Below, one piece after another: positions 26,579-28,123 of a DNA stretch of 36,247 nucleotides. The DNA comes from Candidatus Omnitrophota bacterium (GTDB lineage Bacteria > Omnitrophota > Gorgyraeia > 2-01-FULL-45-10). The position numbers and the translations under genes are program-made. The stretch's first letter is position 1, and the number at the start of each line of letters is the position of its first letter. The notes beneath the pieces are model-generated. The model saw nothing but the letters and a program-made list of their open reading frames with translations, had not been told where the DNA came from and ran no database searches. The DNA lies in contig JAFGRN010000023.1 in NCBI GenBank assembly GCA_016935115.1, positions 1-36,247 of the forward strand. Reading direction: 5' to 3'.

Positions 26579-27871
26579 CTATATTCCCACCTGCCTGAAT
26601 ATCCTGTCCACATTCTTCACATGATATTTAAAATCGAATATATCTTCTATGGTGCCTATCGATAATACCGAGCGTATACCGTCGTCATTAAGCAGTGCGT
26701 CCCTGAATCCGATATTATTACGCTTGGCGGTGAACGCGACGGCCTGTACCTTATCGTATGCCTCATTACGCGTAAGCCCTTTATCGATAAGCTCGAGCAG
26801 GAGCTTGCCGGAGAATACTATACCGCCGGATTTATTGAGGTTTTCCAGCATCCTCTCTTCATTCACTACAAGATGCGAGACTATATCCATGAACTTGTTG
26901 AGCATGTAATCCAGGAGTATGGTCGAATCCGGCAATATCACGCGCTCGACCGAAGAGTGGGATATGTCGCGTTCGTGCCACAGGACGATATCCTCCATGG
27001 CCGCCATCGAATTAGCCCTCAATACGCGCGCCAGGCCCGATATGCGTTCGCACATTATCGGGTTCTTCTTGTGGGGCATTGCGCTCGAGCCCTTCTGGGA
27101 CTTCGAAAAATACTCCTCTACCTCGCCTATCTCCGTATGCTGCAGGTTGCGGAACTCCGTGGAAAACTTCTCAAGCGAAGTCCCTGTAATCGCGACCGCT
27201 GTCAGGAGCTCGGCATGTCGGTCGCGCTGCAGTATCTGCGTGGAGATCCGCGCGCTCTTAAGGCCCATCTTCCTGCACGTGTAAGCCTCGACCGAAGGAT
27301 CTATGTTCGCGTAGGTTCCGACGGCGCCCGATATCTTCCCTACGCTTACCGTCTCGCGCGCCTTCTCGAGCCTCGCGAGATTACGGCCCATCTCATCGTA
27401 GTAAAGGGCGAGCTTCAATCCGAATGTCATGGGCTCGGCGTGGACCGAGTGGGTGCGCCCTATCATGAGCGTCTTCTTATGGCGCCTGGCTTTGCCCTTC
27501 AGTATCCTCATGAGTTTTTTCACGTCATCGATGAGGATGTCACAGGCCTCCCGCATCTGCGCCGAGAGCGCGGTATCCAGCACATCGCTCGAGGTAAGCC
27601 CCATATGGATGTACTTGGCATCGTCGCCGACATATTCCGAAACGCATTTTATGAAAGCTATGACATCGTGGTTTGTCTCGGCCTCGATCTCCCTGATCCT
27701 GTCGACGCTGAACCTGGCCCTCTTCTGTATCTGGAATAGGGACGATTTTGGTATCCGGCCCATCCTGGCGAGCGCTTCGCAGGCATATATCTCCACGTCA
27801 AGCATCCTGCGAAAGCGGTTCTCCTCGCTCCACACGGCAGCCATTCTGGGAAGTGAATATCTGGGTATCAT
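26579..27871 (-). CDS. purB: Adenylosuccinate lyase
   Basis: [12 protein letters not shown] signature, [22 protein letters not shown]. Genuine start is ATG at 27871 ([20 protein letters not shown]); the track's 48 extra codons run into the tRNA-associated repeat. Confidence 0.95.
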
Positions 27872-27891
27872 TATGCCCTCTTTATTTTGAA

Positions 27892-28059
27892 TGGTGCGGA
27901 AGAAGGGAGTCGGCGACTTTGCCTCGCAGTGCTCGGCTCCGTCGCCAGCTTCTTCGCTGTCGCGCATAGCGCTTTTCCTCGCTATTCGCTCGGCGCTCAT
28001 CCGCTTCGACTCCATCTTAAGCCGCTGACAATAACAACTGGTGCGGAAGAAGGGAGTCG
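27892..28059. repeat. 21-bp direct repeat of the tRNA-Leu 3' end flanking a 126-bp structured insert
   Basis: TGGTGCGGAAGAAGGGAGTCG occurs identically at 27892-27912 and at 28039-28059 (inside the tRNA). Insert has inverted repeats GGCGAC 27912-27917 / GTCGCC 27941-27946 and GCG.ATAGCG/CGCTAT.CGC (27962-27989). Confidence 0.9.
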
Positions 28060-28123
28060 AACCCTTAAGGTTTTACCCATACGGTCCTGAGCCGTACGCG
28101 TCTGCCAATTCCGCCACTTCCGC
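28039..28123 (-). tRNA. tRNA-Leu (anticodon CAG), CCA encoded
   Basis: Minus strand GCGGAAGTGGCGGAATTGGCAGACGCG...TACGGCTCAGGACCGTA...AAGGGTTCGACTCCCTTCTTCCGCACCA: class II variable arm, anticodon loop CTCAGGA, 7-bp acceptor stem. Confidence 0.97.

Follow-up and report, generated by a model that had tools for sequence, protein, structure and literature searches.

The insert that separates tRNA-Leu(CAG) from purB in contig JAFGRN010000023.1 of a Candidatus Omnitrophota bacterium (the window, 36,247 nucleotides) is, in the reading we lean toward, a single member of a non-coding, non-autonomous element family that has specialized on the 3′ ends of tRNA and transfer-messenger RNA (tmRNA) genes. 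More tentatively, these units may represent an undescribed minimal class of mobile element in which both ends are copied from the gene it lands behind (a direct copy of 20 bp and an inverted copy of 6-12 bp), and by which any tRNA or tmRNA gene could be colonized undamaged via host recombination enzymes. No known mobile element or RNA family tested accounts for the design of the unit.

The 21-bp sequence TGGTGCGGAAGAAGGGAGTCG is present identically at 28039-28059 and 27892-27912, with 126 bp separating the copies, exactly where a preliminary description made from the DNA letters had placed a perfect duplication of a tRNA 3′ end. ARAGORN calls tRNA-Leu(CAG) at 28039-28123 on the minus strand, and the repeat thus runs from C56 in the T-loop to the CCA at position 76. 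The inverted repeats described for the insert were also borne out, with the minus-strand element folding at -49.1 kcal/mol as compared to -34.8 kcal/mol for shuffled sequences (z = -5.0). Two points were refined: the tail proper begins at tRNA position 57, with C56 doubling as the final base of the body, and the insert is made up of an ∼25-bp spacer beside the tRNA followed by ∼102 bp of arm and body. All units are described on the tRNA-sense strand, which is the minus strand of the window, and the features of the locus are as follows.

28039-28123, minus strand: intact tRNA-Leu(CAG) gene that hosts the unit (ARAGORN)
28039-28059, minus strand: tRNA positions 56-76, the original of the tail (sequence)
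28014-28038, minus strand: 25-bp spacer from the tRNA CCA to the left arm, mostly 10-60 bp elsewhere (sequence)
28005-28013, minus strand: left arm GGAGTCGAA, the reverse complement of tRNA positions 54-62, its first 6 nt pairing with the tail as helix P1 (P1 complement counts)
27912-28007, minus strand: conserved folded body with stems P2, P3 and P4 (covariation; Rfam-negative)
27972-27994, minus strand: CGCCGAGCGAATAGCGAGGAAAAG region, the most conserved motif, a hairpin with possible tandem G.A pairs (alignments)
27962-27972, minus strand: P3 triloop hairpin GCGC-TAT-GCGC, covarying (GGCC-TCT-GGCC and others; alignment and covariation)
27912-27946, minus strand: P4 hairpin GGCGAC...GTCGCC, covarying (alignment and covariation)
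27892-27911, minus strand: tail, an exact copy of tRNA positions 57-76 (sequence and boundary measurement)
26579-27874, minus strand: purB (adenylosuccinate lyase; TIGR00928, 531 bits), 17 bp past the unit

Further copies exist both in the genome of the window and in its relatives, located beside other tRNA genes and carrying a terminal repeat that matches each local tRNA, as the preliminary description had anticipated for a mobile element; its own ground for giving up the idea, a lack of further copies, thus does not apply. A sequence search found similar sequence on five other contigs of the same genome and a covariance model added one more, giving seven family copies in all. Matches were obtained in 19 of 57 relatives by DNA search and in 30 of 57 by covariance model, which counted as many as 13 copies in one genome (G015, the richest), and a phylum-wide search returned matches in 40 of 286 genomes. 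Each full unit consists of a spacer, a left arm (GGANTY), an ∼96-nt folded body, and a tail that repeats tRNA positions 57-76; the structure is conserved and the length mostly uniform at ∼140-170 bp. Units follow at least 30 tRNA isoacceptor types, immediately 3′ and in the same orientation, and are also found behind tmRNA (L013, and likewise L184, in another class). An annotated same-strand tRNA precedes 80 of the 97 copies of the first set, and several copies lacking one follow tRNA-like genes missed by the tRNA finder; in four of these loci (L091, L092, L033 and L109), from several relatives, a group I intron is located just upstream of a tRNA-like 3′ half, tRNA-Asn as judged by its tail, with the repeats after it. 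No match to the unit body was found in the phages or plasmids searched. No description of such a family was found in the open-access literature, to which the search was confined, and its novelty is therefore provisional.

The tail follows the gene next to which it is located. The last 20 bases of the local tRNA are reproduced with at most one mismatch in 63 of the 80 first-set copies with an annotated upstream tRNA, and in a second, phylum-wide set the tail corresponds to the local tRNA in 27 of 29. The trinucleotide TTC plus the first 16 tail bases is found upstream in 98 of 139 distinct copies, as compared to 1.3 expected with shuffled tails, and downstream in 0. As tRNA positions 63-76 lie outside the search model, the tail match is an independent test; chance or artefact is ruled out by its recurrence at other tRNAs with other tails, by the second set, and by the shuffles. 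Both boundaries of the block, between positions 56 and 57 and at position 76, are sharp to the base. In the 88 copies that could be measured, position 57 is the first of the repeated block, with C56 shared in 72 and nothing shared in 12. In genes that encode CCA the block ends at 76 in 34 cases and one base later in 17, close to the expectation for chance matches, and in seven genes without an encoded CCA the limit is less well fixed, at 73 in two and beyond in five. At L083 (∼2030), the tail of tRNA-Val(CAC) is interrupted after position 62 by a short palindromic insert, and a similar split is present in L106. Other candidate families of tail-ended repeats proved mostly to be variants of the unit or insertions into units, with two copies in L088 as possible exceptions.

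The left arm is the reverse complement of positions 57-62 of the same gene. Although P1 entered the search model as a pairing, its identity with the local tRNA did not, and the complement is perfect in 57 of 65 copies, covering 30 isoacceptor types, as compared to 8.3 with shuffled arms. Complementarity also extends beyond position 62, by 1.42 bases as compared to 0.57 expected and by up to 12 bp in total. In three species of one genus that share a tRNA-Lys unit, spacer and body are kept; where tRNA position 60 varies between C and T, the tail shows the same base and the arm its complement. The L005 unit retains its local arm and differs at tail position 57, where it has the same base as its near-identical sister copies, a pattern that suggests exchange of bodies. 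One spacer class (L004, L031 and L073) contains CCATAT...ATATGG, or a close variant of it, with the potential to pair with the CCA end of the tRNA itself.

Body covariation is 0.328 as compared to 0.100 in shuffled alignments, exceeding slid controls as well, and 11 pairs changed on both sides. All six modeled helices of the minus-strand element, P1 included, hold pairs with such two-sided changes. No Rfam 15 family describes the body: with E values up to 5 admitted, the hits lie on tRNAs or in other places and never on the element, and a known RNA family was excluded on this basis. Judging by purine-rich G.A mismatches within the stems, it is probably the tRNA-sense strand that folds, as RNA or as single-stranded DNA. 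In L093, L096 and L208 a different structured repeat (AAAAAGAGGTTTTAGG...), apparently nested in units, is found after the tRNA and before the tail. The tRNA flanks of G001, G003, G015 and G016 also contain at least two further families of palindromic repeats (TTCTGCTTCGC... and ...CGATTTGGCCTTCGCC...) directly after the CCA of many tRNAs.

Units differ in presence between close relatives, as expected for a mobile element. At the orthologous tRNA-Val(TAC) and tRNA-Gln(CTG) genes, one species of a genus carries a unit that a second species lacks; what comes after the tail in the former is the same gene that comes after the CCA in the latter. Near-identical bodies bear different tails in the copy in the window, the tRNA-Gln(CTG) copy, and two contig-end copies of the same genome. 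In a body tree, built on ∼95 columns and with unresolved deep branches, genome labels require 55 changes as compared to 75.6 when shuffled (minimum 70), and tRNA labels 61 as compared to 67.1; bodies thus group by genome and only weakly by tRNA, while the ends stay local. Some tRNAs are followed by tandem units, and only a collapsed hairpin is found at tRNA-Arg(TCG) in G002 and at tRNA-Val(GAC) in G003. For the locus in the window there is no readable empty site, as tRNA-Leu does not adjoin purB in seven relatives. The purB frame stays open across the unit (26579-28015), with the start of the open reading frame (ORF) in the left arm, and a gene caller may thereby give purB ∼47 false N-terminal codons. 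At L085 (1270-2220, reverse strand), a 940-bp insert between tRNA-Ser(CGA) and the unit contains an ORF whose predicted product is a small membrane or secreted protein, along with a hairpin that looks like one half of an attC site; as an integron cassette it was rejected, since no convincing attC site was found.

We infer that units insert at the tRNA 3′ end, duplicating ∼20 bp of the target and keeping the tRNA intact. Recognition of the element would be by way of P1 in a folded single strand; since TTCRANTCC is almost universal, every T-arm would do as a target. Where arm and tail disagree, hairpin-templated correction or gene conversion would repair the mismatch, so that the ends would track the host tRNA, and unequal exchange between the 20-bp repeats would produce both tandem gain and clean loss. 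The machinery would act in trans and is probably host-encoded. Taken together, a 20-bp target duplication and subsequent hairpin correction of the arm would explain both tail and arm, and also the polymorphism and the concerted change.

Several observations weigh against such an insertion mechanism. The draft assemblies showed neither a transposition event nor a circular form nor an autonomous parent, an ordinary staggered-cut transposase would not yield the inverted left arm, and some units look vertically inherited, the tRNA-Lys unit, in which tRNA, tail and arm change together, also fitting selection. No enzyme family tested correlates with the units across the 57 genomes, all of which are incomplete draft metagenome assemblies in which absence of a gene is not proof. 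Cas1 was found in 0 of 57 (controls were detected), as was TnpB (the TnpB/Cas12f1-like family); the Y1/RAYT transposase was found in none of G015 (13 copies), G014 and G017. An RVT_1 reverse transcriptase is present in 14 of 57 genomes but in none of G015, G016, G012 and G035, and the IS110 DEDD recombinase in 7 of 57 but not in G015, G016 or G035. The tyrosine recombinases of G015 and G003 are XerC and XerD only, the sole match in G000 is XerC, and no integron integrase was found in G015 or G003, the two carriers with recombinases identified by name. The only tested candidates present in all carriers, host XerC/XerD or the ordinary enzymes of replication and recombination, are a rather doubtful choice as the responsible activity.

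The strongest competitor to a mobile family, though clearly the less probable of the two, is a structured RNA (or DNA) domain that belongs to the tRNA transcript, acts in cis, and is maintained by selection. The tail would then be an alternative tRNA 3′ half, and the arm would pair with the tail or with the tRNA's own T-arm, which could control folding, 3′ processing, or supply; the spread would be old, with the ends held in step through selection and gene conversion. Covarying stems fit this account, the joint change of arm, tail and tRNA at tRNA-Lys is explained as well as by insertion, in the fold predicted for tRNA and unit together the 5′ acceptor strand is paired to the distal tail and the arm to the T-arm, and an invariant GAA extends arm complementarity to tRNA positions 54-56, which are absent from the tail. 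The account deals less well with the patchy distribution between species of one genus and across tRNAs, with tandem, truncated and collapsed copies, with the clustering of bodies by genome, and with the lack of any preferred isoacceptor class. It is improbable that no dedicated enzyme is involved and that template switching or homoeologous recombination between tRNA loci copies a block from the donor CCA to a T-arm-like junction, a return jump into the recipient T-arm duplicating positions 57-76. CCA and TTCRANTCC, common to all tRNAs, would supply microhomology for both jumps, L005 bears the signature of body exchange, and the carriers share no tested integrase or transposase beyond Xer. However, this process predicts many tails with donor bases at 57-62, of which L005 is the only clear case, and the junction between 56 and 57 is sharper than expected from 6-7 nt of microhomology.

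The preliminary description had proposed a small non-autonomous element using tRNA 3′ ends through tyrosine-integrase att logic, or else the scar of a collapsed genomic island. Its first half survives, as the units are small, associated with tRNA 3′ ends, and found in copies with locally matching repeats. The T stem-loop and the 3′ end are indeed classic integrase targets in tRNA genes (PMC8371274). Even so, an integrase element or island scar is now very unlikely: near-identical bodies bear different tails and arms at different tRNAs, so that the core differs at each host tRNA around a constant body, a search for a matching integrase in G015 gave XerC and XerD only, as in G003, and mostly uniform units with conserved structure and no cargo do not resemble the remains of an island. 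We give almost no credence to a guide-like RNA, in which the body would be a scaffold, the 20-nt tail a guide, and TTC (tRNA 54-56) an adjacent motif as for TnpB omega-RNA, or in which GGANTYGAA would act on TTCRANTCC, split after TTC, as a group I intron-like internal guide. Its appeal is one of geometry only, a structured RNA followed by 20 nt that match a TTC-preceded target, and it is opposed by the lack of the TnpB/Cas12f1-like family in the 57 genomes, by a body with no Rfam group I match (though group I introns occur elsewhere in these loci), and by an arm that would hide the guide seed.

To our knowledge, each element known to use tRNA genes has a single fixed core, which binds it to one tRNA. 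Should the family be mobile, then by rewriting its ends to suit any T-arm it would solve in a different way the problem of inserting into an essential gene without harm, and would suggest how any tRNA 3′ end might be targeted. Should it instead be a selected RNA domain, this phylum of small-genome bacteria would possess a new type of regulatory or processing element linked to tRNAs. Under either reading the question is testable with ∼150 bp of DNA.

Among known systems, REPINs with their RAYT transposases are likewise short, non-coding, structured repeats moved in trans, but as far as we know they have no target copy at their ends and are not restricted to tRNA genes, and the Y1 transposase was not found in the copy-richest genome, G015. 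In IS200/IS605 elements and TnpB omega-RNA, target and element base-pair by complementarity, a trait shared with the family; we know of no target duplication in IS200/IS605, whereas tRNA positions 57-76 are duplicated here and no TnpB was found in the 57 genomes. Retroelements and group II introns differ in requiring the RVT_1 enzyme not found in the four genomes named above, and IS110 bridge RNA elements in requiring the DEDD recombinase not found in three of them. The attC sites of integron cassettes are folded single-strand sites that take their last bases from the recipient and form tandem arrays, all of which the family resembles, but G015 and G003 yielded no integron integrase, there are no cassette genes, and the target here is the T-arm. 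Casposons, too, are found at the 3′ ends of tRNA genes, where they duplicate a long stretch of target on insertion. Their duplications measure 14-15 bp and in M. mazei overlap just the last 4 bp of tRNA-Leu (PMC6977970). In contrast, the block duplicated by the family, positions 57-76, measures 20 bp, and its genomes yielded no Cas1. The attP site of a tyrosine-integrase element carries a fixed core for one tRNA. Such elements, in their T-loop sublocation, share with the family a repeat from T-loop to CCA and a tRNA restored intact, whereas the family, ∼150 bp long, with an inverted left arm and no integrase (XerC/XerD only in G015 and G003), has no fixed core and is found at 30 isoacceptor types, with its own tail at each.
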